Source of the DNA: Microscillaceae bacterium
Lineage (GTDB): Bacteria > Bacteroidota > Bacteroidia > Cytophagales > Microscillaceae
Reading direction: 5' to 3'
DNA length: 40,613 nt
Assembly: GCA_011390205.1 (NCBI GenBank)
Contig: JAABSX010000038.1
Coordinates: 1-40,613 of the forward strand
How positions within the stretch are numbered: the stretch's first letter is position 1; the number at the start of each line of letters is the position of its first letter. This document shows positions 7,636 through 35,412 of the stretch, piece after piece. The position numbers and the translations under genes were made by a program. Under the pieces are notes generated by a model that worked only from the letters and a program-made list of their open reading frames with translations, was not told the DNA's origin and did not search any database.

Positions 7636-7643
7636 TATATTTG
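7636..7643 (+). promoter_or_regulatory. -7 promoter box (TATATTTG)
   Basis: Exact TAnnTTTG match, 33 bases before the ATG at 7677. The upstream TTG start (7641) of the same frame falls inside this box, which supports 7677 as the true start. Confidence 0.5.
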
Positions 7644-7676
7644 CACACTCAAGCAATAATACCATTTCATAAAACC

Positions 7677-9248
7677 ATGAACGCAAACTTAAACCAAGAC
7701 CAACGCCGAAAATCGCTTATCTTAAAGATTTCCTTGTTTGCTACGGGGCTTTCGGGCATTGTGGCAGAGTATATTTTATCTACCCTTGCAAGTTATTTTT
7801 TAGGAGATTCTATCTTGCAATGGACTTTGGTGCTTTCTTTTATGCTTTTTTCTATGGGGCTGGGCAGCAGGCTTACCCCCTTCTTAAAAGGAGATTTGTT
7901 AGAGAAGTTTATCATCATTGAGTTTATTTTGTCGGTGCTGGTGTCTTTCTCTGCAATGTTTGTCTATATCATTTCTGCCTATGCTTCACACACTGATTTG
8001 GTGATTTATGGCTTGAGCATTGCCATTGGTTTGCTGATAGGCATTGAGATTCCGATGGTTACGAGGCTAAACGAAGATTATGAAGAGCTTCGGCTCAACA
8101 TCGCTTCGGTGATGTCTTATGATTATTTCGGAAGTCTTTTAGGGGGTTTGTTCTTTGCCTTTGTGGGCTTGCCCATTTTAGGGCTGACTTACACTCCTTT
8201 TGTGTTGGGCTTCATTAATTTTTCTGTAGCAATGGTGCTTTTTGTGCAGTTTAGAGGCTTGGTGCCTTTGCCTCGCCGAAAACGCTTGCTAGGCTACAGC
8301 GTGCTGGTATTCATCATGCTCACAGCAGGAATTATATTTTCCGAACCGCTGATTCTTTTTGGAGAACAGCAGCGATACGCTGACCAAGTCATCTACGTAG
8401 AAGAATCAAAATACCAAAAAATCGTCATTACGCAATGGAAAAATGATTACTGGCTCTTCATCAACGGAAGTCAGCAGTTTAGCACCCGAGATGAAGAACT
8501 CTACCACGAGCCTCTGGTGCACCCGCTCATGACACTCTCACCTAACCCCCGAAACATCCTCGTTATGGGTGGAGGAGATGGATTGGCTGTGCGTGAAATT
8601 CTGAAATATTCTGAAGTAGAAGACATTACTTTGGTAGATTTAGACCCTGCCATGACCCAGCTCTCTAAGACACATCCCGTGCTGCTTGCCGCCAATGACA
8701 GCTCTTTTTATCACCCCAAACTGACCATCTACAACCAAGATGCCTACAAGTTTATGACAGATACTCGCCAGTATTTTGATGTCATCATCATAGACCTCCC
8801 TGACCCCAAGTCTGTAGAACTTAACAGACTCTACACCAAAGAATTTTACACACTGTGCCACAAACAGCTACGCCCTCATGGCTTGATTATTACACAGTCT
8901 GGCAGCCCTTATTACAGTGGGCAGTCTTTTGAGTGTATTAGGTTGAGCATGCAAGCCGCTGATTTTGGGGTTACACAAATCCACAATCAAGTGCTGACAT
9001 TGGGCGAATGGGGCTGGACCGTCGGCAGCAAGGGGATGGACGAACAGAAATTGAAGGCATCTCTTCGAAAACTCTCATTTAAGAACATACCTACTCGCTG
9101 GATTACCCAAGATGCCATGCTGATGATGACTTCTTTCGGTAAAAAATCTTATTTTTATGATAAAAATAAACAGCCCGTAGAAATCAATACCATCCATAAC
9201 CCTGTGCTTTACAAATACTACCTGAACGGAGGATGGGATTTGTACTAG
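7677..9248 (+). CDS. spermidine-synthase-like enzyme with N-terminal membrane domain
   Basis: A 523-residue fusion. Residues 1 to about 230 contain six or seven membrane helices, resembling the integral-membrane domain found in long SpeE-type proteins. Residues from about 236 form a polyamine aminopropyltransferase domain: YVEESKYQKIVI, then FINGSQQFSTRDEELYHE, then the nucleotide-binding loop VMGGGDGLAVREI (about 297-309), then IIIDLPDPKS and LYTKEFY. These are the standard decarboxy-SAM and polyamine-binding segments of SpeE. The product is probably a membrane-bound aminopropyltransferase, though transfer to another acceptor is possible. I chose ATG 7677 over TTG 7641 because the latter lies in the promoter box. 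Such proteins are often encoded near DUF350 proteins, and one is at 3830. Confidence 0.85.
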   Translation: MNANLNQDQRRKSLILKISLFATGLSGIVAEYILSTLASYFLGDSILQWTLVLSFMLFSMGLGSRLTPFLKGDLLEKFIIIEFILSVLVSFSAMFVYIISAYASHTDLVIYGLSIAIGLLIGIEIPMVTRLNEDYEELRLNIASVMSYDYFGSLLGGLFFAFVGLPILGLTYTPFVLGFINFSVAMVLFVQFRGLVPLPRRKRLLGYSVLVFIMLTAGIIFSEPLILFGEQQRYADQVIYVEESKYQKIVITQWKNDYWLFINGSQQFSTRDEELYHEPLVHPLMTLSPNPRNILVMGGGDGLAVREILKYSEVEDITLVDLDPAMTQLSKTHPVLLAANDSSFYHPKLTIYNQDAYKFMTDTRQYFDVIIIDLPDPKSVELNRLYTKEFYTLCHKQLRPHGLIITQSGSPYYSGQSFECIRLSMQAADFGVTQIHNQVLTLGEWGWTVGSKGMDEQKLKASLRKLSFKNIPTRWITQDAMLMMTSFGKKSYFYDKNKQPVEINTIHNPVLYKYYLNGGWDLY

Positions 9249-17100: not shown

Positions 17101-20100
17101 TTACTCTATCCTGAATCCAATCATAAGCACATCATCTATTTGGCGATGCCCCTCAGTCCATTGCTGAAAGGTATCTTTAAGAATCTGATGCTGCTCCTCG
17201 AGTGGTTTTTGGTGAATCTCTAGCAATAAATCTCGGAGCTGCCTAATCATAAATTTGCGTGCGTGCACTCCTCCAAATTGGTCTTGGTAGCCATCCGTGA
17301 AGATATAAAAAGTAGTAGGGCTATCCACTTTGATTTGATGCTTCTGAAACTGCCTTTCTTCGGCTATTCTTACACCACCTATGGGTAGTTTGTCGCCTTT
17401 GATTTGGTGTAGTTTACCATCTTTGATATAAATCAATGGATTCTTAGCACCTGCAAACTCTACGATTTTGTTTTCTTTATCAATCACACAAAGAGATAAA
17501 TCCATGCCGTCCTTGTTGTCTGTGTCATTTTGTCTTAGTGCCTGTACTACGCCTTCGTGGAGTTCATTTAGGATGACATCGGGCTGCGTAATTCCCCTCA
17601 AATCCACGATTTCATTCAATAAATCATTTCCAATCATAGACATAAAGGCTCCAGGCACGCCGTGCCCCGTACAATCTACTGCTGTAATGACTACTTTTTC
17701 ACTTTCATAACCCACCAAGACCTTTTGCTTGTCGCCGTCTTGGTCTTCATAAATAGGGCGGGGCTCTAGCCTAGCATACCAGTAAAAATCACCACTTACG
17801 ATGTCTCTTGGTTTGAAGAGTACAAAAGATTCGGGTAAAATCTTCTTAATTTCTTCTATTTGTGGCAGCGTAGCCTCTTGGATTCGTTTGGCATAATTGA
17901 TACTGGAAGTAATATCTTGGTTTTTTTTCTCTATAATTTCTTTAGCTTTGACTACCTCTTCGGTGCGTTCTTTTACCTTTTCTTCTAGGTTTTCGTAGAG
18001 GAGGGCATTTTCTAGAGATATGGTAATCTGTGCAGAGAGAATTTCTAAGATTTCTAACCTATCAGGGGTAAATGCCTCAGAGGTTAGGTTATTTTCTAAA
18101 TACAAGATGCCAGTGAGTTTTCCTTGATGTATGAGTGGCATACAAAGCACAGATTTAGGAGAAACCTTTGCGACATAGTTTGCACCAATCATTCCACGCT
18201 CTTGTGAGGCATTGTTGATGACTACACTCTGCCGAGTACGGATAACATAATAGACCAAATCACTGGAAAGTTTCGGGGTGTCAGTCATTCCATTTACGTC
18301 TTCTATCGGGATAGAAAGCAGGGATTCTTCTTCGGTTTGGTTAAGATGACAATCTGCTTCTAGCACCCATCTTCCTTCTCTTTCTAAGATAAAAAGTCCT
18401 TTTTCTGCCCCTGCATTTTCTATGACGATGCGCATCATTTTCTGTAGCAAGCTGCTTAGTATTACCTCTCCGGAGAGGGCTTGTGATGCCTTGATGATGC
18501 TGTGCATATCTAGGCTAGGACTTGCCACAGAGGTAGATTGCGTATTGCTGTGTCGGGGTTTGCTGCTTTGTCCTCTCTGCAGATACTTTCCGAAGTGCTT
18601 CTCTAGGTTGTTGAGTTTATTGTTAGCTCCCCAGAGTTGGTAGCGGTAATAGGCATCTTGCAGATAGACTTTAGCGATTTTTTCTTTTGCAAGACCAAGG
18701 TAAAACTTCCCTGCCAGTTCATTGGCAAGTGCCTCTTCTTGGATATACATATGCTCTCGGGCTTCTTCTATAGCCTTGTCATAGTATTCCATGGCCCTGA
18801 GGGTCTGCCCAGAGAGGCGCATTGTTTCGGCTTGTATGAGGTGATGTTTATGTGAGCAGTTATCAGGAGAGTATTTTGCCCAGTTGGCGAGGGTTTTTTG
18901 GTTTTCGTTGATTTGGGCAAGATACTTTATTTTTTCTTCGGTGCTAGCCTCAGGAAATTGCGCCAAGAGTGCAAGAGAGTAAAAGAAATTATGTACGGGC
19001 ATAAAGAGCATTCCTGTTACGCCTTCTTTGTATTGGTCTGTCATCTCTGCATTTCGGAGGGCTTGGGCATAATCTCCAAAATAATAAGAAAGCATGGTCT
19101 TTGCCTGCAAAGTGATAAAAGCAAGGGTCAGTTGCTGCTCATTGATATACTCTGGCAGCATCGTATCTTCCTCAAAAAAAGCACCTTGCAGTTTAGTAGG
19201 CTCGTCTTGGGGGTTGCTGAGGTTTTCAATCATTTGCTGCCACGGAGTAAGGTATTGTACGTGAAAGCCTTGCTTGAGCTGCTTGATAAGTTCTAGGTTT
19301 TGGGCATATTTTTGTCCGAGAGATTCTAAGCTGATGCCCATTAAGAAGTGATAATGACAAGATTCTACGATATTGTAAGAAGCAAACTCAATTTCACCTG
19401 TTTCTAGTCCTACTTGGATGGCTTCAAAGTGAGGTTTTCGGGTGGCTCTTGCGGGTTCTTTCCAGTGCATCACCGTAGATACATAGAGGTTATCTACTTT
19501 TGCCTTAAAAAACTTGGCATTGAATTTATCGAGCATATTCACGGCAAGTTTGCCAAGCTGATAACCCAAGTCTATGTTGCCAAGTGCACCACAAAGCAAT
19601 CCACCATAAAAAGCATAGCCCACACATGCAGAGGCAGAGTTGCCATATTCTAAGGAGAGATTGACCATTGTGTAGGTAATCTTTCGAAAAAGCTCAGGGT
19701 TGGTAGCCGAAGCAGGAGAGATGATGCTGTCCATGATTTCCATTCCTGCCTTGATTTCAGGGTTTTTCATGTGAGGGAGCTGCTCAATGATGCTGACATC
19801 TATGTCTTTTTGGGGTGCATCTGCAAGGGTGATGTTGAGCAAATCAAGTACTTCTAGCCCTACTTCTATGGCTTCCTGTAGGTTTCCCTTGGCGATGTGG
19901 TACTGCATTTCTATCTCAAAAGCGGGCATTTTATCAAGCACATGCGCTGCTTTTTCACGGATGATATGAATGTATTGGCTACTTAGCTCTAAATCACCTT
20001 TTAAGAAAGCTACTTGCAAGATGGCAGCATAGATTTCAAGTGTGAGGTCATAGTTGTTTATCCAGGCATCTTTGGGCAGCAGCTCTAGGGCTATTTTGAG

Positions 20101-22359
20101 ATAATCAAAAGCAGGTTTGTAGGCAGCAGATAGATTGGCTTTTTTGCCAGCCTCTAGGTTAATACAAGTAAGGAAATACTTTTCTTCTGATGTTTCTAAT
20201 AAATCTCTTCCAAAGTTGAGCTGATTCACGATGTCAAAGAGATTTTCCTCTCTTTTGTTATCAGGGATATTATCTAGCAATAGTCTTCCTATTCTGAGGT
20301 GGATGACTTTGCGCTCTTCGTCAGGGATGAGTGAGTAAACTGCTTGCTGAATGCGGTCATGCGCAAATTTAAAATCGTTTTCGAGCGGGATGACAAGCCC
20401 CTCTATGAGGGCAGGCTCTAGGCTTCGGTGCGTACTGTCTGTATCATCGGGTGAGCCCATTTCATCTATGATGGCAAGCGTATCTAGGTGAAAACGGTTA
20501 CCGACACAAGAGGCAAGTTTGAGTAGGTCTTGTGTAACTTCGGGTAATTTTTGTACTTTGCCTGCCATGAGGCTTACCACATTGTCGGTGATATTGAGTG
20601 CTTGGATTTTTTGAATATCCCATTGCCAGTGTCTGAGTTCAAAATTAAAATGCAGCAGCCCTTCTTCGTAGAGAGACAAAAGCATTTGCTGCACAAAGAA
20701 AGCATTTCCCTGTGTTTTTTGATAAATCAGTTCTACCAAGTCTGAGATTTGCTCGGTTTCAGCCTTTAGCACATCAGAGATAAGCTGCTGAATGTGCTCT
20801 TGATGAAGATTACTAAGCTCAAGCTCATGGATTTGGATACTTTCTTCTCTGATTTCTTCTACTGAGAGTAAAAAAGGATGCCCTTCACCTACTTCGTTTT
20901 TGCGGTATGCCCCAATGATGAGTAGGTGGTCACCCGCTCTATTGGTAAGCAAAAGTTTGAGTAGATTCATAGAAGCGGCATCAGCCCACTGCCAGTCATC
21001 TATAAAAATGACAAGCGGATGCTCACGCCTAGAGATGGCAGTTACGAAGTTTTGAAACACAAGGTTAAACCTATTCTGGGCCTCTGTAGCTCCCAGTTCG
21101 GGGCTATCAGGTTGTTTGCCTATGATGAGTTCTAATGCAGGGATGACATCTGTAAGAATTTTGCCATTGTTACCCACGGCTTTGAGTATTTTTTGTTTCC
21201 AACGCTCTAGCTCTCTGCTGTTTTCAGTAAGCAGATAATTTACAAAACTTTTAAAAGCCTGTATGAATGCAAAGTAAGGCACATTTCTCTGAAATTGGTC
21301 AAATTTACCTTCTATAAAATATCCTTGCCTCTGCTGTATAGGCTGATGAATCTCGTGTACGAGGGCAGATTTACCCACACCTGAGTAGCCTGCCACGAGC
21401 ATCAGTGAGGCGATTCCTTGGGAGGTTCGTTCAAAGGCATCTAGCAAGTAGCCCACTTCTTTTTGTCTGCCATAGAGTTTGTCTGGGATTTGAAATCTGC
21501 CCGAGAAATCGTGCGTAGCAATTTCAAAACTGGTGATTCTCCCTTCTTCTTGCCATTCTTGCAGGCATTTTTCTAGGTCGTAGCGTAGCCCAAAAGCAGA
21601 TTGATACCTGTCTTCGGCATTTTTACGCATCAGCATCAGTATAATGTCAGAGATGACTTCGGGCATTTTGGGGTTAATGCTCTGAGGGGGGGCAGGGCTT
21701 TGGGCAAGATGATTGTGCACCATTTCCATGGGGTCTTCACTCTGAAAAGGAAGCCTTCCTGTGAATAACTCATACAAGACCACTCCTAGAGAGTAAAGGT
21801 CTGAGCGAGTATCTATTCTTCGGTTCATCCTTCCTGTCTGTTCGGGAGATATATAGGCGAGTGTGCCCTCTAGTTTGTCATGGTTATTTCTTTGATTGGC
21901 TTTGAGGCTGATGCGGGCAGAGATTCCGAAATCAATGATGAATACCTGCTCATTTTCTGAAATGAGGATATTTTTGCAGTCTAAATCTTTATGGATGACA
22001 TTGCTTTGGTGTATCTCTCCGAGGATATGACAGATTTGGATGCTTATTTTTAAAAGCCTTTCAAAAGATTGGATGGGCTGTGCTTTTATGATGTCTTCAA
22101 GCGTGCTTCCTGGGATATACTCCATGACAAGGGCAGCCTTTCCCTCAAATTTGGTTTTGCTATAGACCTTGCGTACTCCAGCTATTTCTAGTTTTTGGGT
22201 GATGCTGTATTCATTGTAAAATGCTTGGATTTGCTCTGCTGATGCCTGGTCATTTTTAATGGTTTTGATGACTACGGGCACGCCCCATTCACTATTTTCT
22301 TGGTGATACACTGTGGAGTTTTCGCCTTCAAAGATTATATCGGATTTTTCCGCCAACAT
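17101..22359 (-). CDS. multidomain Ser/Thr kinase - ATPase - GAF - SpoIIE phosphatase
   Basis: A 1752-residue signalling protein. Domains in order: (1) eukaryote-like Ser/Thr kinase, about 5-270, with the Lys of VVIKTIK (K32), HKDLDCKN (D125, N130), DFG (143-145) and SPEQTGRMNR; (2) AAA_16-type P-loop ATPase, about 293-560, with GYSGVGKS (324-331) and FIDDWQWAD (452-460); (3) a long helical, TPR-like region to about 1270; (4) GAF domain about 1302-1449; (5) coiled coil about 1450-1490; (6) SpoIIE-type PP2C phosphatase to the end, with SGDFYW (D1524), DCTGHGVPGAFMS (D1562) and DDVLMIG (D1742-1743) as metal ligands. The first four parts match the known 'trifunctional' kinase/ATPase/GAF/histidine kinase family, but a PP2C phosphatase replaces the histidine kinase. 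All active-site residues look intact. It is cytoplasmic with no membrane segments. Its phosphatase is of the same class as SiaA, the partner of SiaB (1963). Confidence 0.9.
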   Translation of the reverse strand: MLAEKSDIIFEGENSTVYHQENSEWGVPVVIKTIKNDQASAEQIQAFYNEYSITQKLEIAGVRKVYSKTKFEGKAALVMEYIPGSTLEDIIKAQPIQSFERLLKISIQICHILGEIHQSNVIHKDLDCKNILISENEQVFIIDFGISARISLKANQRNNHDKLEGTLAYISPEQTGRMNRRIDTRSDLYSLGVVLYELFTGRLPFQSEDPMEMVHNHLAQSPAPPQSINPKMPEVISDIILMLMRKNAEDRYQSAFGLRYDLEKCLQEWQEEGRITSFEIATHDFSGRFQIPDKLYGRQKEVGYLLDAFERTSQGIASLMLVAGYSGVGKSALVHEIHQPIQQRQGYFIEGKFDQFQRNVPYFAFIQAFKSFVNYLLTENSRELERWKQKILKAVGNNGKILTDVIPALELIIGKQPDSPELGATEAQNRFNLVFQNFVTAISRREHPLVIFIDDWQWADAASMNLLKLLLTNRAGDHLLIIGAYRKNEVGEGHPFLLSVEEIREESIQIHELELSNLHQEHIQQLISDVLKAETEQISDLVELIYQKTQGNAFFVQQMLLSLYEEGLLHFNFELRHWQWDIQKIQALNITDNVVSLMAGKVQKLPEVTQDLLKLASCVGNRFHLDTLAIIDEMGSPDDTDSTHRSLEPALIEGLVIPLENDFKFAHDRIQQAVYSLIPDEERKVIHLRIGRLLLDNIPDNKREENLFDIVNQLNFGRDLLETSEEKYFLTCINLEAGKKANLSAAYKPAFDYLKIALELLPKDAWINNYDLTLEIYAAILQVAFLKGDLELSSQYIHIIREKAAHVLDKMPAFEIEMQYHIAKGNLQEAIEVGLEVLDLLNITLADAPQKDIDVSIIEQLPHMKNPEIKAGMEIMDSIISPASATNPELFRKITYTMVNLSLEYGNSASACVGYAFYGGLLCGALGNIDLGYQLGKLAVNMLDKFNAKFFKAKVDNLYVSTVMHWKEPARATRKPHFEAIQVGLETGEIEFASYNIVESCHYHFLMGISLESLGQKYAQNLELIKQLKQGFHVQYLTPWQQMIENLSNPQDEPTKLQGAFFEEDTMLPEYINEQQLTLAFITLQAKTMLSYYFGDYAQALRNAEMTDQYKEGVTGMLFMPVHNFFYSLALLAQFPEASTEEKIKYLAQINENQKTLANWAKYSPDNCSHKHHLIQAETMRLSGQTLRAMEYYDKAIEEAREHMYIQEEALANELAGKFYLGLAKEKIAKVYLQDAYYRYQLWGANNKLNNLEKHFGKYLQRGQSSKPRHSNTQSTSVASPSLDMHSIIKASQALSGEVILSSLLQKMMRIVIENAGAEKGLFILEREGRWVLEADCHLNQTEEESLLSIPIEDVNGMTDTPKLSSDLVYYVIRTRQSVVINNASQERGMIGANYVAKVSPKSVLCMPLIHQGKLTGILYLENNLTSEAFTPDRLEILEILSAQITISLENALLYENLEEKVKERTEEVVKAKEIIEKKNQDITSSINYAKRIQEATLPQIEEIKKILPESFVLFKPRDIVSGDFYWYARLEPRPIYEDQDGDKQKVLVGYESEKVVITAVDCTGHGVPGAFMSMIGNDLLNEIVDLRGITQPDVILNELHEGVVQALRQNDTDNKDGMDLSLCVIDKENKIVEFAGAKNPLIYIKDGKLHQIKGDKLPIGGVRIAEERQFQKHQIKVDSPTTFYIFTDGYQDQFGGVHARKFMIRQLRDLLLEIHQKPLEEQHQILKDTFQQWTEGHRQIDDVLMIGFRIE

Positions 22360-22526: not shown

Positions 22527-22620
22527 TTTGTAGAATAGGTAAATACTTGTATGTGATTTTTCTTTGCTTGATTTAGGCAATGGAATATTTTATAAAAATC
22601 AGAAAAGATAAAAACAAATA

Positions 22621-22656
22621 CCAAGCCCCGTATTTTGATAAAAATACAGGGCTTGG
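22621..22656 (-). terminator. hairpin terminator after the PepSY-like gene
   Basis: Sixteen-base arms (22621-22636 and 22641-22656) pair fully on the minus strand if one U-G wobble is allowed; on the plus strand this is a C-A mismatch. The minus-strand RNA then runs into a T-rich stretch (TATTTGTTTTTATC), as expected for termination of the gene ending at 22682. Confidence 0.75.
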
Positions 22657-22681
22657 CTAGGCATGGCATATTTTTGTGCCC

Positions 22682-25254: not shown

Positions 25255-26379
25255 TTATTTTTGAGAAATCGCTTTGAATACTGCCTCAAAACCTTCACAT
25301 TGCAGCGTGTGGGTATATTTATCCAAGACATTTTTTTGTGCCTCTTGAGCCATTTTGTTTCTCAATGCGGCATCTTGGTAGAGTTTGAAGACCGCTTCTG
25401 CCAATGCTTGTGCATCTTTGGGTGGGGTAAGCAGCCCTATTTTTCCTTGTGCGAGCAGGTCAGGTGTGCCCCCGCTGTCTGTGCCTATCACAGGGGTGGC
25501 TGTGGCAAGTGCTTCAATGGTAACCATCCCGAAAGATTCTGCAAGTGAAGACATCACAAAAACATCCAATGCTCTGAATGCCGCAGCGGTATTTTCTACA
25601 AAAGGGTGGAAGATTACTTTGTCTTCTAAGTCTAATTTTTGAATAAGATTTTTGAGATAGCCCAGATACCCCTCATGTCCGTAAGTTTCTTCTCCCACGA
25701 GGAGCACCTTCATGTCAGGTGCTTTGTCTGCAAGTATTTTCACAGCTTGGAGGATACATTCTTGCCCTTTGATGGGGTCTAGCCTTCCGATACAGCCCAG
25801 CACGAAGTCATTTTCTTGGAGGCGAAATTTTTTCTTGAGCACTGCTTTGGGCATTTTAGAAGCTTCTACAAAAGGAGCTACTTCTATGCAGAGTGGGATA
25901 ATTTTAATTTTGCTCTGAGAGATATTCGTGCTCTGAAGGAGCTGCTGCCTGAGGTACTCAAGCGGCGTAATCCAGGCATCTAATCTTTTATAAAAAAAAC
26001 CATGGTAAGGGTCTTTCTTTTGAGAAGTCATTTGCATTTGCTGCCAATAGACTACCTTGAGCGGGTTTTTAGAAAAAGATTTAGATAAAATGCCCGTATA
26101 AAATTGATAATAATGTGCAATCAGAAGCTGCTCTATCTGATGTTGTTCTAAGAGTTTTGCCAGTCTTTTAGAGGCATTGATGTTGAGGTGTTTTTGTTTT
26201 TGTGTAAACTCCAAGGTCTGTATGCCTGTTTTCTGAACCTCACTCATCAGTCTGCTGTCAGGTTTGCCCAGAAATACAATCTCATTGCCCCTCTCATGAA
26301 GCCATTTACAAAGCCTGAGTGTATTCATTTCTAAGCCCCCCCAAGAGTCAATACTGCACAAAACGGCCAACTTTAGCAT
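25255..26379 (-). CDS. glycosyltransferase family 4 (GT-B)
   Basis: A 374-residue cytoplasmic glycosyltransferase. The N-terminal Rossmann half opens with LAVLCSIDSWGGLEMNTLRL, the usual glycine loop for acceptor binding. The C-terminal GT4 half has VLGCIGRLDPIKGQECILQA and SSLAESFGMVTIEALATATP, the E-x7-E nucleotide-sugar motif. It probably adds a sugar to a surface glycan precursor. It is divergent from the heptosyltransferase-like gene at 26626 and marks the left edge of the glycan locus. Confidence 0.88.
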   Translation of the reverse strand: MLKLAVLCSIDSWGGLEMNTLRLCKWLHERGNEIVFLGKPDSRLMSEVQKTGIQTLEFTQKQKHLNINASKRLAKLLEQHQIEQLLIAHYYQFYTGILSKSFSKNPLKVVYWQQMQMTSQKKDPYHGFFYKRLDAWITPLEYLRQQLLQSTNISQSKIKIIPLCIEVAPFVEASKMPKAVLKKKFRLQENDFVLGCIGRLDPIKGQECILQAVKILADKAPDMKVLLVGEETYGHEGYLGYLKNLIQKLDLEDKVIFHPFVENTAAAFRALDVFVMSSLAESFGMVTIEALATATPVIGTDSGGTPDLLAQGKIGLLTPPKDAQALAEAVFKLYQDAALRNKMAQEAQKNVLDKYTHTLQCEGFEAVFKAISQK

Positions 26380-26625
26380 AAATGTTTATTTTGGTAAATA
26401 ATCTTGATTGTGTTGATGATAGTGTATAATTAGCAGCTTCAAAAGTGCTAAATATTTAGGAAATAAACGATTTTGGGTAGATAAATTTACTTATTCGGAA
26501 AGAAAATAGCTTACTGCTTTTTACCTAGGCGACAAGAAAACAGCCCTTTAAAAGATGGATTGTAGAAATACTTTTCAAAAAAACATTGAGAGAGATGGTA
26601 TAAAATCTTTTGAATTTCATTTTTT

Positions 26626-27657
26626 TTGCAGAGAATCACCAATTTTAAGCAAAATTTGGAAAAGAAAGCCCAACGAATCATCCTTAGCCGCACAGACAAC
26701 CTCGGAGATGTCATCCTTACACTTCCTTTGGCTGGATTTTTAAAGCATCATCTCGAAAATGTAAGGCTCTATTTTATCGGCAAGGCTTACACAAAACCCT
26801 TGATAGAGGCTTGTGAGTTTATTGATTGTTTTTTGGATAGAGAAGAAATCATCCAAAACCCTCATATTTTAGAAGAAATCAAGGCCGATGCCATTGTGTT
26901 TATTTTCCCTGATAAATCGCTTGCACAGTTGGCTTCCAAACTAAATATTCCTTTGAGAATAGGCACTTCACATCGTTGGTTTCATTGGTTGTATTGTAAT
27001 CAAAGCGTCAGTTTTAGCCGCAAAAAATCTGATTTGCACGAAGCACAGCTTAATTTTAAACTCCTCAAACCGCTCGGATGGGATGTATTGCCCTCTTTTG
27101 AGCAAATCAGTCAGTGGTATGGCTTTGAGGCAAAAGCCACATTGCCCACAGAAATAGAGGGACTACTCTCTGACAATCGTAAAAAAATCATCATTCACCC
27201 CAAATCTAAAGGCAGTGCTAGAGAGTGGGATTTAAGCAAATACAAAGAAGTGATAGATGCACTGGATGCCCAGAAATACCAGTTTCTAATCACAGGCACG
27301 GCTTCAGAGGAGGCACGTGTGATACAGGAGTTTCCTGGCATTTTAGAAGAAACCTCTGCCCTCAATCTAATGGGAAAGCTAGACCTAGCCCAGTTGATTA
27401 CTTTGATAGCCAAGGCAGATGCACTTTTGGCGTGTAGCACAGGGCCGCTGCACATCGCCGCTGCTTTGGGTAAATTGGCTGTAGGGTTGTATCCGCCCAT
27501 CAAGCCCATGCACCCCGAAAGATGGCAGCCCATAGGCACTCACGCAGAAGTATTGGTGCTCAAAAAAGAATGCAGTGCCTGCCGAAAGCAAATACAATGT
27601 GCTTGTATTCAGGAGATTAGCGTGGAAGAGGTGTGCAAAATATTGTGGACGGTATAA
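26626..27657 (+). CDS. glycosyltransferase family 9 (heptosyltransferase-like)
   Basis: A 343-residue GT-B enzyme of the family that includes the LPS heptosyltransferases. Typical segments are IILSRTDNLGDVILTLPLAG near the N terminus and IIIHPKSKGSAREWDLSKY, then ALLACSTGPLHIAAALGKLA and LYPPIKPMHPERWQP in the donor half. The end has a Cys-rich KKECSACRKQIQCAC segment. No ATG precedes the conserved start; the frame opens after a TGA at 26611-26613 and the best candidate is TTG at 26626. That TTG sits at the end of a run of eight T, and a frame with an ATG at 26555 runs into the same run, so a homopolymer indel is possible. Confidence 0.85.
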   Translation: MQRITNFKQNLEKKAQRIILSRTDNLGDVILTLPLAGFLKHHLENVRLYFIGKAYTKPLIEACEFIDCFLDREEIIQNPHILEEIKADAIVFIFPDKSLAQLASKLNIPLRIGTSHRWFHWLYCNQSVSFSRKKSDLHEAQLNFKLLKPLGWDVLPSFEQISQWYGFEAKATLPTEIEGLLSDNRKKIIIHPKSKGSAREWDLSKYKEVIDALDAQKYQFLITGTASEEARVIQEFPGILEETSALNLMGKLDLAQLITLIAKADALLACSTGPLHIAAALGKLAVGLYPPIKPMHPERWQPIGTHAEVLVLKKECSACRKQIQCACIQEISVEEVCKILWTV

Positions 27658-27685
27658 ATTTAGTTTTTTAGCAGACCTGTTTTTT

Positions 27686-28669
27686 ATGATGAAGAAAGAG
27701 AATATTTTTATCTCAGGCTTTACTTTTCTAAAAAATGCAACTAGTTTGTATTATCCTTTCTGTGAGTCTATCAAGTCCATTTTGCCACTGGTAGATGAAT
27801 TTGTGATAGCACTTGGCAAAGGCAGTGAGGAGGATGACACCCTTGCCGAGCTAGAGAAAATAGCTGACCCTAAAATCAAAATCATGCATACAGAATGGGA
27901 TGTAGCAGGCTACCCTACCAATACCATCTATGCACAGCAGACAGATGTGGCAAAAGACGCATGCCAAGGCGAATGGCTTTTTTACTTACAAGGGGATGAG
28001 GTCATACACGAGCAAGACCTTGAGAAAATCAAAAATGCCTGCCTCAAATACAAAGATGATGCAAGGATAGAAGGCTTTCTTTTTAAATACCTGCACTTTT
28101 ATGCAGATTATCGGCTGATTCAAGACAACCATGCATGGTACCCTCGTGAGATTAGAATGCTCAGAAATCTGCCCGAAATACATTCCTTTGGGGATGCACA
28201 GTCTTTCCGCAAAATCCCTCAATTTGACGGCAAAAGCTACAGAGATAAAAAAGGGACACAGAAGCTCAAAGTAGTCCTTTTAGATGCCTTTGTGTATCAT
28301 TATGGCTGGGTGAGGCCGCCTCGGTTTATGCAAAAACACAACTACTCTGCTGCTGTAAGCTACCATGGCGAAGAAAAAGCAAAACAGATGCTCGCACAGC
28401 AGCTCATCCGATACAATTATGGCCCACTCGGGCATTTATCTACATTCAAGGGAACGCATCCTGCGGTAATGAGTGAAAGAATTAAGGCATTTGACTGGGG
28501 AGACACATTAAACTATACCAAGCAATATGTCCCCGAAGAACCCAAGCAAGCCTCCCTCAAGTTGAAGAACCGTTTGCTTACATTCATAGAAAAATATATC
28601 TTAGGCTACAAGAATAAATCTTTAGGCTATAGAAATTGGAAGATTGTGAAGAAGGAAAAAAGTCTGTAG
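27686..28669 (+). CDS. GT2-like glycosyltransferase
   Basis: A 327-residue protein. It starts MMKKENIFISGFTFLKNATS, and the second ATG (27689) is equally possible; the open frame extends upstream into the previous gene but has no better start. Segments FCESIKSILPLVDEFVIALG, AKDACQGEWLFYLQGDEVIH (the acidic donor-binding motif replacing a DxD) and a later AFVYHYGWVRPPRFM fit a GT-A glycosyltransferase seen in Bacteroidota glycan loci. Basic C-terminal tail, no membrane helices. It is cotranscribed with the GT9 gene (29 bases before) and probably with the ABC exporter after it. Confidence 0.75.
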   Translation: MMKKENIFISGFTFLKNATSLYYPFCESIKSILPLVDEFVIALGKGSEEDDTLAELEKIADPKIKIMHTEWDVAGYPTNTIYAQQTDVAKDACQGEWLFYLQGDEVIHEQDLEKIKNACLKYKDDARIEGFLFKYLHFYADYRLIQDNHAWYPREIRMLRNLPEIHSFGDAQSFRKIPQFDGKSYRDKKGTQKLKVVLLDAFVYHYGWVRPPRFMQKHNYSAAVSYHGEEKAKQMLAQQLIRYNYGPLGHLSTFKGTHPAVMSERIKAFDWGDTLNYTKQYVPEEPKQASLKLKNRLLTFIEKYILGYKNKSLGYRNWKIVKKEKSL

Positions 28670-28703
28670 TTTTGCATCTAGCACAAACCATAACCCCAAT
28701 AGA

Positions 28704-30536
28704 TTGAAAACCTTTTTTAGAATATTATCCCATGGCAGGCCTTTTACTCAGTTTGCCGTTCCATTTTTAATCTTCTCTACACTCAGTACTATTTTCGGGC
28801 TGCTGAACTTCAGCCTGTTGATTCCACTTTTAGACGTACTTTTCGGGAGGATAGAGCCAGCACAGTTACAAACCATGCAGCAGCCCCCTGCTTTTTCTTG
28901 GAGTTTGGATTATGTAACGAATAGCTTTTACCATTTTTTCTCAGAAGTAGTCAGAGATTATGGCAAAATGGGTGCTTTGCAGTTTGTTTGTTTGACGATT
29001 GTTACTTCAGTTTTACTGGCCAATGTATTCTCTTACCTCTCTATGCGTATCAACGAGAAGCTCAAAATTAGAACCATCAAAAGTGTCAGAAAACAACTTT
29101 TTGAGCGCATTACGGCATTGCCCTTGGGCTACTTCTCTAACCAGCGCAAAGGAGACCTTACCTCAAGAGTAGCTACTGATGCCACTGAGTTAGAGTATTC
29201 TATTTCTATTAGTTTGAGTTTACTTTTCAGAGAGCCTATTAGTTTGATTTGTTTTTTCATTGCGTTGTTTTCCATTTCTGTCAAGCTTACATTATTTACA
29301 TTGATTATTGTGCCTATCTCAGGTTCATTAATAGCATATCTGACCAAGAAAATGCGTGAGAAGACAAAGCTGGGGCAAGAATACATTGGCTCACTTATTA
29401 GTATTGTGGATGAGACTATCGGAGCAATGCGCATCATCACAGGTTTTAATGCACAAGGCTATATTCGCCAAAAATTTGAGAACGAAAACGAACGCTATGC
29501 TCGGCAGCTCAACTCTATCGCCAGGACAAGAGAACTTGTAGCTCCATTCTCAGAGTTTTCGGGAGTATTGGTAGTTTCTATTATTTTGCTGTATGGGGGT
29601 AGTTTGGTGTTTTCCCAGGATGCAAGCCTGAGTGCAAGCCAGTTTGTAGCCTATATTATCTTGTTTTCGCAAGTATTACGCCCTGCCAAAGCCATTTCTA
29701 AGGGAATCAGTGATATACAAAAAGGACTCTCAGCCGCCGACCGTATTTTTGAGGTGATAGATACGCCATCAGAAATCAATGATACCCCACAAGCCAAGAA
29801 GATGCTTGGCTTTGAGAAGCGGATTGAGTTTAGAGATGTTTGGTTTAAATACCAAGAGCAATGGATTCTGAAAGGGGTGAGCTTTACGATAGAAAAAGGT
29901 GAAAAAGTAGCTCTAGTAGGGGAAACAGGCAGTGGCAAATCTACTATCTCTGATTTGATTCCTCGCTTTTATGATATTCAAAAAGGTGAAATCTTGATAG
30001 ATGATGTGCCTTTACAAGCCATAGAAATGCACTCTCTGCGTGCACAGATGGGTATCGTAACCCAAGAGGCCATTTTATTCAATGATACCATTGCCAATAA
30101 TATTGCCTTTGCCGAAGAAGTAAGCCAAGAAGAAATCCAAGAGGCAGCCAAAATCGCCAATGCCCATGATTTTATTCTCAAAACTGAAAAACAATACCAA
30201 AGCAATGTAGGCGATAGAGGCATGAAACTTTCTGGCGGACAGCGTCAGCGGATGACCATCGCAAGGGCTGTACTCAAAAACCCCCCTATCTTGATTTTGG
30301 ATGAGGCTACTTCTGCCCTAGATGTAGAATCTGAAAAATTGGTGCAAGATGCCCTTTACAAACTGATGAAAAACCGCACCTCCCTCGTGATAGCACACCG
30401 CCTCAGCACCATCCAAGATGCAGATAAGATACTGGTGCTCAAAAATGGAGAAATCATAGAACAAGGCACACACGAAACGCTGCTTGCTCAAGAAAATGGC
30501 TACTACAAACGCATGACAGCAGTACAAATTAGCTAA
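28704..30536 (+). CDS. MsbA-type lipid exporter, ABC half-transporter
   Basis: A 610-residue ABC exporter with an N-terminal six-helix transmembrane domain (about 15-330) and a C-terminal ATPase: Walker A VGETGSGKST, signature LSGGQRQR, Walker B ILILDEATSALD and H-loop IAHRLST, all intact. Homodimers of this type flip lipid A-linked or other lipid-linked glycans to the periplasmic side. The start is TTG at 28704, giving the usual MKTFFRIL opening; no in-frame ATG precedes it. It is the third gene of the plus-strand run from 26626 and is followed by a GT17 gene 32 bases later. Its place inside a glycosyltransferase cluster supports a role in exporting the glycolipid built by those enzymes. Confidence 0.9.
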   Translation: MKTFFRILSHGRPFTQFAVPFLIFSTLSTIFGLLNFSLLIPLLDVLFGRIEPAQLQTMQQPPAFSWSLDYVTNSFYHFFSEVVRDYGKMGALQFVCLTIVTSVLLANVFSYLSMRINEKLKIRTIKSVRKQLFERITALPLGYFSNQRKGDLTSRVATDATELEYSISISLSLLFREPISLICFFIALFSISVKLTLFTLIIVPISGSLIAYLTKKMREKTKLGQEYIGSLISIVDETIGAMRIITGFNAQGYIRQKFENENERYARQLNSIARTRELVAPFSEFSGVLVVSIILLYGGSLVFSQDASLSASQFVAYIILFSQVLRPAKAISKGISDIQKGLSAADRIFEVIDTPSEINDTPQAKKMLGFEKRIEFRDVWFKYQEQWILKGVSFTIEKGEKVALVGETGSGKSTISDLIPRFYDIQKGEILIDDVPLQAIEMHSLRAQMGIVTQEAILFNDTIANNIAFAEEVSQEEIQEAAKIANAHDFILKTEKQYQSNVGDRGMKLSGGQRQRMTIARAVLKNPPILILDEATSALDVESEKLVQDALYKLMKNRTSLVIAHRLSTIQDADKILVLKNGEIIEQGTHETLLAQENGYYKRMTAVQIS

Positions 30537-30568
30537 GATTTACACATCCTAAAAAAACAGAATACAAG

Positions 30569-31423
30569 ATGATATATGATTGTTTTACCTTCTTCAATGA
30601 GCTAGAGCTATTAGAGATTAGACTTCATGAGCTTGATGGGGTAGTCGATAAATTTGTGATTGTAGAGGCTACCCGCACCTTCACTAAGAAGAAAAAAAAA
30701 CTATATTTTGAAGAGAATAAAGCACGATTCAAGGACTTTGAGCATAAAATCATTCACATCATTGTAGATAAATACCCCACTTTTTTTAAGAAATTTCGTC
30801 CTGTTAAGACTTGGGATTATGAGCATCACCAGAGAGAAGCTATCTTACAAGGTTTAAAAGACTGCAAACCTGAGGATTGGGTGATTATCTCAGATATTGA
30901 TGAAATCCCTAAAGCTGAGCAGCTCAAAAACGCCAGCCAAACAAAGGGCATTAAAGTATTTGAGCAGGATTTATTTTATTACTTCTTCAACTGTATCTGT
31001 ACACATTTCCCTACGGAAAGTACTCAAAATGCCCCCCCAAAAACCAAAGGACACTGGAGAGGCTCTGTGATGCTGCCTTTCCGAGAAATCCAAAGCATCA
31101 GAGAAACCAGAATGATAAGAGATAAAAAAGAAAGTAGTGATATCCAGACCATAGAAAACGGAGGTTGGCATTTTAGCTTTTTGGGAGGATTAGCACAAGT
31201 CATCACCAAACTTCAATCTTACTCTCATGCCACTGAGGCAAAATATAGCCTCAGTGCCTTTAAAGATAATCAAGAGATAGAAGAAATCATCAACAGTGGT
31301 CTAGACCTATTTGGGCGTGGTATCCAATATAAGTTTATCCCCTTAGATGAGCAGTTTCCAGAATACCTCCTTGAAAATCAAGAAAAATACCAACACCTTA
31401 TCAAGCCGATTACTCAAACATAA
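30569..31423 (+). CDS. GT17 family N-acetylglucosaminyltransferase-like protein
   Basis: A 284-residue protein of the GT17 family, named after the animal bisecting beta-1,4-N-acetylglucosaminyltransferase MGAT3. It begins MIYDCFTFFNELELLEIRLH, the family hallmark, followed by VDKFVIVEATRTFT, HHQREAILQGLKDCKPEDWV, and the metal-binding IISDIDEIPKAEQL. GGWHFSFLGG in the second half is also typical. Bacterial members are found in surface polysaccharide loci. There is no signal or membrane segment, so it should act in the cytoplasm, unlike animal Golgi relatives. The actual donor and acceptor are unknown. Its stop lies 17 bases from the convergent gene at 31441. Confidence 0.88.
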   Translation: MIYDCFTFFNELELLEIRLHELDGVVDKFVIVEATRTFTKKKKKLYFEENKARFKDFEHKIIHIIVDKYPTFFKKFRPVKTWDYEHHQREAILQGLKDCKPEDWVIISDIDEIPKAEQLKNASQTKGIKVFEQDLFYYFFNCICTHFPTESTQNAPPKTKGHWRGSVMLPFREIQSIRETRMIRDKKESSDIQTIENGGWHFSFLGGLAQVITKLQSYSHATEAKYSLSAFKDNQEIEEIINSGLDLFGRGIQYKFIPLDEQFPEYLLENQEKYQHLIKPITQT

Positions 31424-31440
31424 GGCACTGAAGGCTCAGG

Positions 31441-32238
31441 TTATTCTTCTACCTCAAAGCCATCTAGTCTGCCTTTCTTTTTGAGGTACCAAAAGTTGGT
31501 GTATTTGATAAAATGTGAGAAGGCACTGCCAATAGAAATGATAAGCCCTTTTTTTCCATCCAAAAAGCCCCTCTGTGCAATGTAAGACTTCAGGAAAGCC
31601 GTGATAGGGCTCATCACTATTTTCCAGCCTTGTAGTTTTTTACCCTTTCGGAGCAGCTCTTCAGCACCATATTTGCCATAATAATTCATCTTGTCAAAAT
31701 ACTGGTGGAGAGAAGTATAGCTATTATGAAGTAAATCCTCTTTAAGATGCCCTAATTGATAAGGATGTGTAATCACAATGCCCTCATGCAAGATATTGTC
31801 ATTAAAATCACAGTGATGCTTGTTAAAAAAACGAGTAACCCTCCCAGGATACCAGCCTGTATGCCGTACCCATTCACCCATAAAAAAAGTTTTTCGTGGC
31901 ACATCATAGGCAGCCACACCCGCAGGGATGAGCGGAAAAATATGACACAGTTCTTCTTTCAGTGAACTCTGCACAATCTCATCTGCATCAATCCAGAACA
32001 CCCAATCATGAGCACTGTGCTGCACGGCTACTCTTTTGGTGCCAGAGAAGCCCAGCCACTCGGAGAGGATTACTTTCACATTCTCAAAATTTTTGGCGAG
32101 TGCCACGGTATTGTCTGTACTTCCACTATCTACCATAATTACTTCATCTGCCCAATCTAGTGATTGTAGGCATTTGACAATATTTTTTTCCTCATCTTTA
32201 GTAATCAAAATGACCGATACCTTAATCTTTTCTGACAT
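31441..32238 (-). CDS. GT2 glycosyltransferase, WaaE/KdtX-like
   Basis: A 265-residue GT-A enzyme. KVSVILITKDEEKNIVKCLQ and EVIMVDSGSTDNTVALA form the nucleotide-binding region and WVFWIDADEIV supplies the acidic metal-binding motif. The later HTGWYPGRVTRFFNK and ILHEGIVI segments match the WaaE-like LPS inner-core beta-glucosyltransferase group. A hydrophobic stretch near residues 205-245 suggests membrane association. It runs against the preceding genes of the cluster and has its own promoter candidate at 32264-32271. Confidence 0.85.
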   Translation of the reverse strand: MSEKIKVSVILITKDEEKNIVKCLQSLDWADEVIMVDSGSTDNTVALAKNFENVKVILSEWLGFSGTKRVAVQHSAHDWVFWIDADEIVQSSLKEELCHIFPLIPAGVAAYDVPRKTFFMGEWVRHTGWYPGRVTRFFNKHHCDFNDNILHEGIVITHPYQLGHLKEDLLHNSYTSLHQYFDKMNYYGKYGAEELLRKGKKLQGWKIVMSPITAFLKSYIAQRGFLDGKKGLIISIGSAFSHFIKYTNFWYLKKKGRLDGFEVEE

Positions 32239-32263
32239 GTCTTGTAATTTTGTGATAGTTTGG

Positions 32264-32271
32264 CAAAACTA
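32264..32271 (-). promoter_or_regulatory. candidate -7 promoter box (TAGTTTTG)
   Basis: Minus-strand TAGTTTTGCC fits TAnnTTTG and lies 26 bases before the start at 32238. No matching -33 element is visible. Confidence 0.4.
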
Positions 32272-32367
32272 ATATTTTTTTTACATTGCTGGATTTTGTG
32301 GGCGTGAAATCGTGCGGACTTCCCCAACATTCGCAGGAGAGATGCTTAGATATTCACGATAAATGAA

Positions 32368-32375
32368 TATTTTTG
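32368..32375 (+). promoter_or_regulatory. candidate -7 promoter box (TATTTTTG)
   Basis: Fits TAnnTTTG, 72 bases before the FkbM gene start. Weak support, as the region is AT-rich and chance matches are likely. Confidence 0.25.
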
Positions 32376-32447
32376 AATGAGGTTTTGTAGAGATGTTACT
32401 CTCAAAGCTAAAAATATTGCTTTTAGACCCAATCTATCTCCGAAAAT

Positions 32448-33134
32448 ATGAATGTAGAAGAAAACATAACTTTGTTTAGAAAATGTAATCAAAAAAAATA
32501 CGCCCCTGCACATGTAGCAGAAGTAGGTGTATATCTGCCCGAAACCTCTAACATTGCATCTTATATCAGGCAAGGAATACGGAGTATGCTTATAGAGCCA
32601 GACCTCCAGACAGTAGAAAAAATCAAATCTTATTTTAAAGAAGCTGGTAATTTGACCATTCATCCTTTGGCAGTGTATGATTATACGGGTACACTTGTGC
32701 TTGTAAACCGAGACTCTTCTACCTTTGCAGCAGACCTAAAAGGAAGCCCTGCACTCATCAATGATAAATATACCATACAGCCCGAAGACAAATTTGAAGT
32801 ACCTTGCACTACTTTTGATACTCTGGATGATGGCAGTATTGACCTACTGAGCATAGACATAGAAGGGGGAGAGTGGTATGTATTGAAGCATTTAAAAAGC
32901 CGCCCTGATGTCATTTCGGTAGAGACCCATGGCAAAAAATACATCAATCCCTTTATCCAAGAAATCTTGGATTGGATGGAAAAAAACAATTATCAAGTAT
33001 GGTACAAAGATGGTAGCGATACCGTATTTGTAAAGGAAGGCACATTTGAGGTTACTCCCAAAGAAAAAAGCCAATTATTCTGGACAAACTTCTGGCTAAA
33101 ACTCAGAAGAATACGCAAGAAAATCGGCTTATAA
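32448..33134 (+). CDS. FkbM family methyltransferase
   Basis: A 228-residue SAM-dependent methyltransferase. The SAM-binding opening is AHVAEVGVYLPETSN, followed by MLIEPDLQTVEKIK, which is the acidic residue after the second strand. The FkbM signature DLLSIDIEGGEWYVLKHL is clear at about residues 138-155. Family members O-methylate sugars or other hydroxyls, and the gene's position among glycosyltransferases suggests it caps or modifies the glycan. It is a lone plus-strand gene between two minus-strand ones, 19 bases from the convergent methyltransferase at 33154. Confidence 0.88.
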   Translation: MNVEENITLFRKCNQKKYAPAHVAEVGVYLPETSNIASYIRQGIRSMLIEPDLQTVEKIKSYFKEAGNLTIHPLAVYDYTGTLVLVNRDSSTFAADLKGSPALINDKYTIQPEDKFEVPCTTFDTLDDGSIDLLSIDIEGGEWYVLKHLKSRPDVISVETHGKKYINPFIQEILDWMEKNNYQVWYKDGSDTVFVKEGTFEVTPKEKSQLFWTNFWLKLRRIRKKIGL

Positions 33135-33153
33135 GCATGCTTACACTTCGGGT

Positions 33154-34101
33154 CTATTGCTTGATTCTGAGTAAAAATGCGGCTTGATCTCCACGTTTTT
33201 CAGTATTGAGTTGTTTTGCTTTCTTACGGTACTTCCATTTATCGAGCTTTTTTTGGATCTTGCCTGTGAGTCCTTTGTAGCTTTTTTGGTTTAGTGTGAT
33301 GTCTTTGATGTATTTTTCACTTGCGATAAATTGTAAATCCTCTGAGTCATAAATAGTATCAAAGAGTTCTAGACCAGCTTTCTCTGCCAAAATCTGCATA
33401 CTCTCTACGGAGTGCAAGAAAATATGCCGAGGTGCATCTAACTGAAACCAGTTGGTGCGATAATGCTCCCAAGCATAAGAAGAAGCCGTAGGGATTCTAA
33501 TCATACAGACTCCCGCAGGGCGGAGTAGTTCTTTTACTTTTTGTAGGTGCTCAAGCGGATCAGGCACATGCTCAAAAGAGTGATGATACATGATTAAATC
33601 CCAATCTTTGGAACTCATCTTATGGATACTTTTTTTGTAGATATTTAATCCATTGGCATAGCTGATATCTTTGGCTATGAAGGGGTCAATCCCCTCTAGA
33701 TGCTCAAAACCTACCTCTGCCATTGCATATAAAAAATACCCTGTGCCACAGCCCACATCCAGAATTTTACTTTGTGGATTTACTCCTATCTGAGCTACTA
33801 AATCATAAGTTTTCGTAGGAAATAGACGGCTTATGAGTTGATTTTTATGAAGTAAAGTGGCGGAGTAGCGTAGCTTCTTGAATTTACCCTTTAAGCCCTG
33901 ATAGAAACTCTCAGGAGAAATATTAAAGCTATAATATTCACTAGGATAATAATCTGATAAATTCTCAGGGACTTCACTGATTTGCAAGCACTTACAGGCT
34001 GCACACTGGAAATAAGTAAATATATCTCTCGTACCGATTTGCATTTCTTTTGCCTCATAGCTTTGGTTATTGGCCTCATTTCCACAAATTCTACAATCCA
34101 T
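33154..34101 (-). CDS. class I SAM methyltransferase with N-terminal zinc ribbon
   Basis: A 315-residue protein. The first 40 residues hold a four-cysteine zinc ribbon (C3, C6, C33, C36 in MDCRICGNEA and FQCAACKCLQ), then a Rossmann methyltransferase of the Methyltransf_23 type with SKILDVGCGTGYFLYAM and LIMYHHSFEHVPDPLEHLQK. This layout is common in polysaccharide loci for C- or O-methylation of sugars. It starts 21 bases after the GT2 gene ending at 34123 and is probably cotranscribed with it. Confidence 0.88.
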   Translation of the reverse strand: MDCRICGNEANNQSYEAKEMQIGTRDIFTYFQCAACKCLQISEVPENLSDYYPSEYYSFNISPESFYQGLKGKFKKLRYSATLLHKNQLISRLFPTKTYDLVAQIGVNPQSKILDVGCGTGYFLYAMAEVGFEHLEGIDPFIAKDISYANGLNIYKKSIHKMSSKDWDLIMYHHSFEHVPDPLEHLQKVKELLRPAGVCMIRIPTASSYAWEHYRTNWFQLDAPRHIFLHSVESMQILAEKAGLELFDTIYDSEDLQFIASEKYIKDITLNQKSYKGLTGKIQKKLDKWKYRKKAKQLNTEKRGDQAAFLLRIKQ

Positions 34102-34122
34102 TGTATAGGGAGCTTTTTTGAT

Positions 34123-35142: not shown

Positions 35143-35237
35143 TTTGCTCAAAAAATCTCTTGTCGTTCTCAGGTAGGGTCTGTCTTTGTATGACAAGCTT
35201 AGCTTTTCCACTACTACCCCCCTGTAATTCAAAATGC

Positions 35238-35245
35238 CAAAATTA
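35238..35245 (-). promoter_or_regulatory. candidate -7 promoter box (TAATTTTG)
   Basis: Minus-strand TAATTTTGGC fits TAnnTTTG and lies about 96 bases before the chosen start at 35142, within the alternative longer frame. It would drive the GT2 and methyltransferase pair. Confidence 0.4.
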
Positions 35246-35412
35246 GACAAATAATTTCTATAAGAAATAACTATTTTCGTAAATTTGAACTCCATAAATA
35301 AGTGTAAAGCAAGACAAAACAGTTATAAAAACATAAAATACTGATTATCAATATCTTACGCTTTATTATGCTCAAAGTTAGACATATAATCAATTCTCAT
35401 CCATAATCAATT

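Follow-up and report, generated by a model that had tools for sequence, protein, structure and literature searches.

A one-chain kinase, NTPase and SiaA-like phosphatase from a Microscillaceae bacterium belongs to a widespread protein family with apparently exchangeable output domains

We describe a 1752-residue protein in which a Hanks-type Ser/Thr kinase, an NTPase, a TPR-like arm, a GAF domain, a helical linker and a SiaA-type PP2C phosphatase are joined in one chain, with cores that appear intact by their sequence motifs. The protein is one ordinary, intact member of a family in which the kinase-STAND-TPR-GAF part appears, from sequence comparison, to serve as a chassis with exchangeable tails, and its kinase-AAA_16-GAF-SpoIIE architecture, although not new, is real, conserved and widespread. 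The gene lies in the window, that is, the whole stretch of DNA analyzed (40,613 nucleotides of contig JAABSX010000038.1), where 17101..22359 forms a single minus-strand ORF with an ATG start and a single stop; the plus strand of this interval contains many stops in the frame translated. A preliminary description had reported a kinase, an ATPase, a GAF domain and a SpoIIE phosphatase in this one chain, and the observation is confirmed by the ORF and a Pfam domain search, which agree, all four domains (Pkinase, AAA_16, GAF, SpoIIE) scoring above their own gathering cut-offs; the interpretation placed on it is partly supported. The family amounts to a natural domain-swap experiment, with one kinase-NTPase-TPR-GAF input joined to phosphatases, histidine kinases, cyclases and sigma-54 activators. 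It makes testable how a single input can work with such different outputs, and whether a push-pull pair is formed when kinase and phosphatase share a chain. The features are as follows.

17101..22359, minus strand: whole ORF, kinase-STAND-TPR-GAF-linker-PP2C (ORF translation and Pfam)
21535..22359, minus strand: Hanks-type Ser/Thr kinase, residues 1-275 (Pfam PF00069, 2e-40, and motifs)
20260..21507, minus strand: NTPase (AAA_16), probably of the STAND type, about residues 285-700 (PF13191; predicted model; 6mfv, MalT and Apaf-1 matches)
18505..20259, minus strand: TPR-like superhelix spanning about residues 701-1285 (array of helix pairs in the predicted model; matches to Rap and MalT domain III)
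17995..18489, minus strand: GAF domain, about residues 1291-1455 (PF01590, 7e-15; PDE GAF matches of the family profile)
17815..17994, minus strand: helical linker, residues 1456-1515, containing LEEKVKERTEEV (long helix, low-confidence part of the model)
17104..17814, minus strand: SiaA-like PP2C (SpoIIE) phosphatase, residues 1516-1752 (PF07228; 6k4e, 1.7e-70 with the family profile; Foldseek)
22620..22657, minus strand: terminator-like hairpin between a PepSY-like gene and the ORF (17-pair stem and T-rich tail; pattern match)

At the N-terminus, Pkinase (PF00069) covers residues 7-252 (2e-40), and the catalytic set of a Hanks Ser/Thr kinase (K, E, D, N, DFG) is complete: K32, D125 and D143, previously read as an intact active site, are in place, with HKD at D125 (the residue before it is K) and DFG at D143, and E50 and N130 are present as well. 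E50 and N130, like the Walker A and Walker B motifs and D1689 mentioned below, presumably fill the motif roles given to them here. In one close ortholog pair, dN/dS is about 0.06 in the kinase and about 0.05 in the PP2C domain, and dN is far below dS in every domain of L005/L006 and L003/L008, the only two pairs with dS readable in every domain, dS being mostly saturated in the two pairs that include the window's own gene.

At the opposite end, SpoIIE (PF07228) covers residues 1554-1751 (2e-17), and the metal-binding Asp/Gly set of PP2C/PPM phosphatases is complete (D1524, D1562, G1565, D1689, G1690, D1742), which bears out the earlier reading of an intact phosphatase site at D1524, D1562 and D1742/D1743; no histidine kinase family is among the Pfam matches of the protein up to E 0.01. 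The proposed PP2C fold of the C-terminus holds in the predicted model, for which the best Foldseek match is 6k4e, the PP2C domain of SiaA (E 8e-16, target TM 0.80, query TM 0.44), with RssB and SpoIIE ranking lower. The last 274 residues match 6k4e at 4.5e-35 in phmmer, and a profile of 30 members does so at 1.7e-70, with RssB next for the PP2C part at 1.4e-6. SiaA of Pseudomonas aeruginosa (6K4E; PMC7647112), whose solved structure covers just the PP2C part, is the closest solved relative of this end, and against the SiaA equivalog NF038263 (NCBIfam) the window protein scores 195 bits, below the cut-off of 700. In alignment, the metal-site residues listed in the available text of PMC7647112 are all conserved (D457, D474, G477, D600, G601, D653, D534 and D604 of SiaA with D1524, D1562, G1565, D1689, G1690, D1742, D1620 and D1693, respectively), whereas in place of the SiaC contacts modeled there, F612, R652 and E609, the window protein has R1701, I1741 and V1698; the two proteins have the catalytic site in common but not the substrate surface. 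Because these contacts differ, SiaC as a substrate is without support at the level of residues.

Between the two enzymes, the earlier assignment of an AAA ATPase stands, with AAA_16 (PF13191) over residues 294-482 (7.5e-42) and P-loop NTPase motifs (Walker A from 324, Walker B from 450), but it had missed the long TPR-like arm that follows: the predicted model of residues 284-1290 (mean pLDDT 83, pTM 0.56, five sequences) consists of the NTPase and then a long array of helix pairs. Its best Foldseek match is 6mfv, a STAND protein with a TPR sensor (E 2.5e-10, query TM 0.30), and MalT and Apaf-1 are also among the matches. In VIA comparisons, the model aligns with MalT 8bob (Z 16.6, rmsd 6.0, 381 aligned), Apaf-1 3sfz (Z 15.2, rmsd 5.1, 378 aligned), MalT domain III 1hz4 (Z 18.8, rmsd 5.0, 348 aligned) and 6mfv (Z 14.9, rmsd 11.1, 606 aligned); ORC/Cdc6 reach Z 15.4, a small margin of STAND over other AAA+ proteins, and the TPR part scores Z 20-22 with Rap and APC/C subunits, Rap being the top match at Z 22. 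Residues 284-1290 are thus probably, not certainly, a MalT-like STAND unit, a call kept at this strength because ORC/Cdc6 and unrelated TPR proteins also score high. MalT and other STAND NTPases (8bob, 1hz4, 6mfv) likewise combine an NTPase with a TPR arm. Peptide sensing, considered on account of the Rap matches, was dropped, since helical repeats score high easily. The output of MalT is the control of transcription; in the window protein, unlike MalT, the unit has a kinase on its N-terminal side and a phosphatase on its C-terminal side. The TOMM kinase/cyclase fusion model TIGR03903 matches residues 295-704 (E 6e-47), scoring 160 bits where the cut-off is 706, and the tail of the window protein is not a cyclase.

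The GAF match (PF01590) spans residues 1302-1449 (7e-15), and a profile of the chassis family matches PDE GAF structures; the model of residues 1285-1752 (mean pLDDT 57, three sequences) is reliable mainly within the PP2C domain, with the GAF part below pLDDT 50. The linker motif also precedes other kinds of tail in relatives: a pattern written from the chassis family itself is present in 31/34 SpoIIE, 21/43 histidine kinase, 5/10 cyclase and 2/2 sigma-54 members, absent from 22/43 histidine kinase, 5/10 cyclase, 2/2 AAA_35 and 1/1 GGDEF members, and found in 0/92 shuffled proteins. Crossing coiled-coil helical linkers are proposed, in the accessible part of PMC12143880, to make inputs exchangeable between phosphatases, histidine kinases and cyclases, and the occurrence of the linker pattern across tail types fits, by analogy, the mechanism outlined there.

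Relatives with 53-61% identity over essentially the full length occur in eight genomes of the same family, and because these near-full-length relatives exist and dN is below dS, the architecture is more than chance. A query-spanning relative in one ORF is found in 12 of the 15 same-family genomes, the window's own included; in the remainder, one relative runs off the end of its contig, another has a frameshift near residue 1517, and in G010 no chassis relative was found among the candidates scored. Relatives of the first 1280 residues occur in at least 76 of 291 genomes of the order (E up to 1e-120), at least 15 of 296 genomes of the same phylum (1e-60), at least 15 of 198 in the phylum of G346 (1e-100) and at least 15 of 247 in the phylum of G347 (1e-120), all of these being lower bounds, with two or three candidates scored per genome and the query or center genome counted. 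The homology runs along most of residues 1-1280 or more, beyond single domains, and the matches include two Microscillaceae MAGs, one Desulfobacteraceae MAG and one Acidobacteriota MAG; the best 20 plasmid relatives, which are cyanobacterial, align over about residues 6-1448 (38-42%). The Acidobacteriota MAG (G347, 11.6 Mb, the source of L034) has 34 chassis matches, a count in which some genes appear as two pieces, and its members (L113, L114, L116-L121, L124-L132) carry several kinds of tail. Gene fission, considered for L074, L075 and L007, each of which consists of two overlapping ORFs, was rejected, as assembly frameshifts explain them equally well.

The view of the SpoIIE tail as an oddity is therefore not upheld: the architecture is common, being found in the family, elsewhere in the order and in further phyla, and one example is already in print, from Leptospira, a genus of another phylum than that of the window's organism. 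Leptospira interrogans lic12324 is listed in a table of PMC5100919 as "PK, AAA_16, GAF, SpoIIE", the domain order of the window protein, and both of its transposon mutants were less fit in hamsters, a likeness drawn from the table entry and fitness data. The dual kinases HstK of Anabaena and cbSTKIII, as given in parts of PMC2176072 and PMC1262709, share with the window protein an N-terminal Ser/Thr kinase, a GAF domain and a C-terminal signaling enzyme, but their tail is a histidine kinase where that of the window protein is a PP2C domain, and with its SpoIIE tail the window protein is not a dual Ser/Thr-histidine ("trifunctional") kinase. The available text of PMC2176072 reports domain shuffling among cyanobacterial dual kinases, HstK included, with one GAF and cyclase form, and that of PMC1262709, printed in 2005, reports dual Ser/Thr-His kinases together with PP2C-kinase fusions of Pseudomonas in which, opposite to the window protein, the PP2C domain is N-terminal to the kinase. 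A kinase and a PP2C domain in one chain are common to the window protein and the cases in PMC1262709 and PMC12088040, the latter stating in the part at hand that PP2C proteins with Pkinase may perform both reactions; the excerpts of these two papers give no AAA or GAF part for the fusions. A literature search, which covered few subscription journals, found no biochemical study of the kinase-AAA_16-GAF-SpoIIE architecture, and the accessible portions of PMC2887360, PMC11032199, PMC7517822 and PMC7159879 contain nothing on it.

The window protein fits the chassis family in having an N-terminal Hanks kinase, AAA_16 and then GAF with a signaling enzyme in one chain. Dereplication of 191 chassis ORFs at 90% left 153 members, with tail classes assigned from profiles built on the first sample: 64 histidine kinase, 50 SpoIIE, 22 cyclase and 9 cut tails, the other 8 being 5 sigma-54, 2 AAA_35 and 1 GGDEF. 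That first sample comprised 92 tails by Pfam (HATPase_c 38, SpoIIE 34, cyclase 10, sigma-54 2, AAA_35 2, GGDEF 1), a count that includes near-copies from two sister genomes and one gene counted twice (L056 and L076), the true numbers being 91 genes and 9 cyclases. In a tree built from 144 chassis cores, with kinase and tail removed and the 9 cut-tail members left out, at least 30 changes of tail label are required; SpoIIE taken by itself needs 15, at least 9 being forced by starred (strongly supported) branches alone. This is a quick LG+G4 tree in which many rows have an unusual letter make-up and two long-branch joins, one involving L213, are flagged. The first tree, of 88 rows, from which members without a readable tail and the near-copies L012, L059, L061 and L066 were left out, has 21 label changes, with 11 for SpoIIE (8 on the starred count). 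Because histidine kinases, cyclases and sigma-54 activators share the chassis, it was not born only as a pair that adds and removes phosphate. The SpoIIE tail of L088 (G346:C452) is of another subtype, carrying GDVSGHG instead of VDCTGHG, which suggests a separate acquisition.

Taking the parts together, we lean slightly towards reading the protein as a STAND-type ligand-gated switch, with the PP2C tail as its output and the kinase as a regulatory tuner. It would be a soluble, stand-alone signaling switch, in which a ligand or protein bound on the TPR arm, or perhaps on the GAF domain, would bring the STAND-like NTPase into the ATP state, chains in this state would associate, and the GAF domain and helical linker would relay the signal by pairing two PP2C domains. 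The paired PP2C domains would dephosphorylate a small STAS-fold phosphoprotein, presumably of the SiaC type sooner than a classical STAS protein. The N-terminal kinase would be an active regulatory module that phosphorylates its own chain or a partner and, most likely, sets the sensitivity of the switch rather than reversing the phosphatase on the same site.

SiaC is the known substrate of SiaA, and SiaB acts on SiaC in Pseudomonas (both from the available text of PMC7647112). A partner of SiaC or STAS type had been suggested for the window protein, and Sia-type candidates do exist in its own genome (G000, 4.5 Mb), which holds 45 SpoIIE domains, 10 SiaC ORFs (11 matches, two apparently within one frame), 10 SiaB matches and 4 STAS matches, with SiaA-SiaB-SiaC-like clusters on contigs C47 and C77; phosphatases are in large excess over known partners. 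A SiaC-type partner appears more plausible than a classical STAS protein on these sequence matches. Only one copy of the chassis is present, the other 44 SpoIIE domains sitting off it, and because they do, this type of SpoIIE domain would seem to need no such kinase. SpoIIE domains within 1 kb of a SiaC gene number 3 of 45, and a tree with 41 of these domains (the window protein's included, 4 weak ones left out) shows the three scattered, one of them sharing a starred set of 18 with the window protein. The window itself contains a SiaB-type (DUF6272) gene at 1963-2643 on the plus strand (match 2101-2493), about 14 kb from the 1752-residue ORF; the search of the genome for SiaC found none on this contig.

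An alternative that we consider unlikely, raised already in the preliminary description, is push-pull, in which kinase and PP2C domain would write and erase one and the same phosphosite on a single partner, with the outcome set by the STAND/GAF state. It draws on the state of the kinase across tail types, where the K/D/N/D set is intact in 48/50 SpoIIE (the PP2C residues in 49/50, both cores in 48/50), 37/64 histidine kinase, 13/21 cyclase, 2/2 AAA_35, 1/1 GGDEF and 1/3 readable sigma-54 members. With "degenerate" defined as any departure at K32, D125, N130 or D143, the kinase departs in 27/64 members with a histidine kinase tail against 2/50 with a SpoIIE tail (Fisher p = 2e-6, relatedness ignored, most SpoIIE members coming from the window's own order); five of the 27 (L018, L272, L273, L280, L281) differ only at N130, and L093 and L112, the contigs of which start inside the kinase so that K32 is unreadable, are listed as degenerate in the count. 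In tree-aware tests, from which L093, L112 and L055 were left out and L094 was set aside too, independent pairs give a mean of 3.8 for and 0.4 against for SpoIIE (median p 0.25, not significant) and 5.4 for and 0.5 against for histidine kinases (median p 0.07), and kinase changes number 2 on 28 units of tree for SpoIIE versus 14 on 50 for histidine kinases (p 0.066; SpoIIE versus all non-SpoIIE, p 0.079). Better kinase retention with SpoIIE tails is thus a lead, the direction being the same with the tree taken into account, but these tests, which are not significant, speak against push-pull, as do L213, in which the kinase residues are lost and those of the phosphatase kept, and the 10 SiaB-type kinases of the window's own genome. 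The paralog L071 (G012:C15), in which the catalytic residues of kinase and phosphatase have both been lost while the full-length frame is still open, can be counted in favor. It is likewise a doubtful proposition that SpoIIE-tailed members are single-chain writer-and-erasers, the phosphatase tail having been gained several times independently and the kinase then selected to stay active on a shared phosphosite, against frequent decay of the kinase with a histidine kinase tail. A broader rule, that the kinase is kept with every tail other than histidine kinase, was rejected: cyclase members were intact in 8/8 of the first sample and 13/21 of the larger one, and 2/3 readable sigma-54 members are degenerate. 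Members with a histidine kinase tail and a departing kinase include L072, L099, L110 and L122, and many "dual kinases" may, from their sequences, be pseudokinase-histidine kinases.

We give still less credence to a self-resetting timer, in which the PP2C tail would strip the phosphate that the kinase puts on its own chain, with no partner switch. Both enzymes are in one chain, Hanks kinases commonly autophosphorylate, and a fixed neighbor gene was not seen among 11 relatives, all of which would suit such a timer; against it, the PP2C domain is SiaA-like, and the substrate known for SiaA is SiaC, while the remaining SpoIIE domains of the genome sit off the chassis. That the kinase is a docking or nucleotide-sensing module only, without catalysis, is very improbable for the window protein: the chassis probably works without kinase catalysis, because so many histidine-kinase-tailed relatives depart from K/D/N/D, but the window protein and nearly all SpoIIE members (the 48/50 above) retain the catalytic residues, and dN/dS in the kinase is low.

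For the switch with a regulatory kinase that we favor, the surroundings of the gene offer no fixed partner. Upstream, a PepSY-like gene stops 322 bases short of the ORF start, and because the terminator-like hairpin sits between the two, the arrangement suggests that the ORF is transcribed separately, although terminator-like sites in the region are not clearly in excess over shuffles (8 vs 5.7, sd 2.9); a pattern search listed no promoter-like site on the minus strand of this gap. A GyrA/ParC-like gene lies further upstream and an MlaE permease gene downstream. The flanking genes (MlaE permease, PepSY-like) adjoin the chassis ORF in 0/11 relatives (15-20 kb each), for which reason a fixed partner gene is not seen and a conserved operon partner was dropped as a candidate. 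The only strong match to any window gene near the 11 relatives is an ORF of L153 (8694-10268), adjoining the ortholog there and 66% identical to the window gene at 7641-9248, which has a spermine synthase domain and sits about 8 kb from the 1752-residue ORF; the rest are at 27-32% and include a SiaB-like ORF 3 kb off in L152. Elsewhere in the window, glycosyltransferase, heptosyltransferase-like, FkbM methyltransferase and ABC transporter genes follow in a row at 25255-35295, a run that is probably for surface glycan synthesis.
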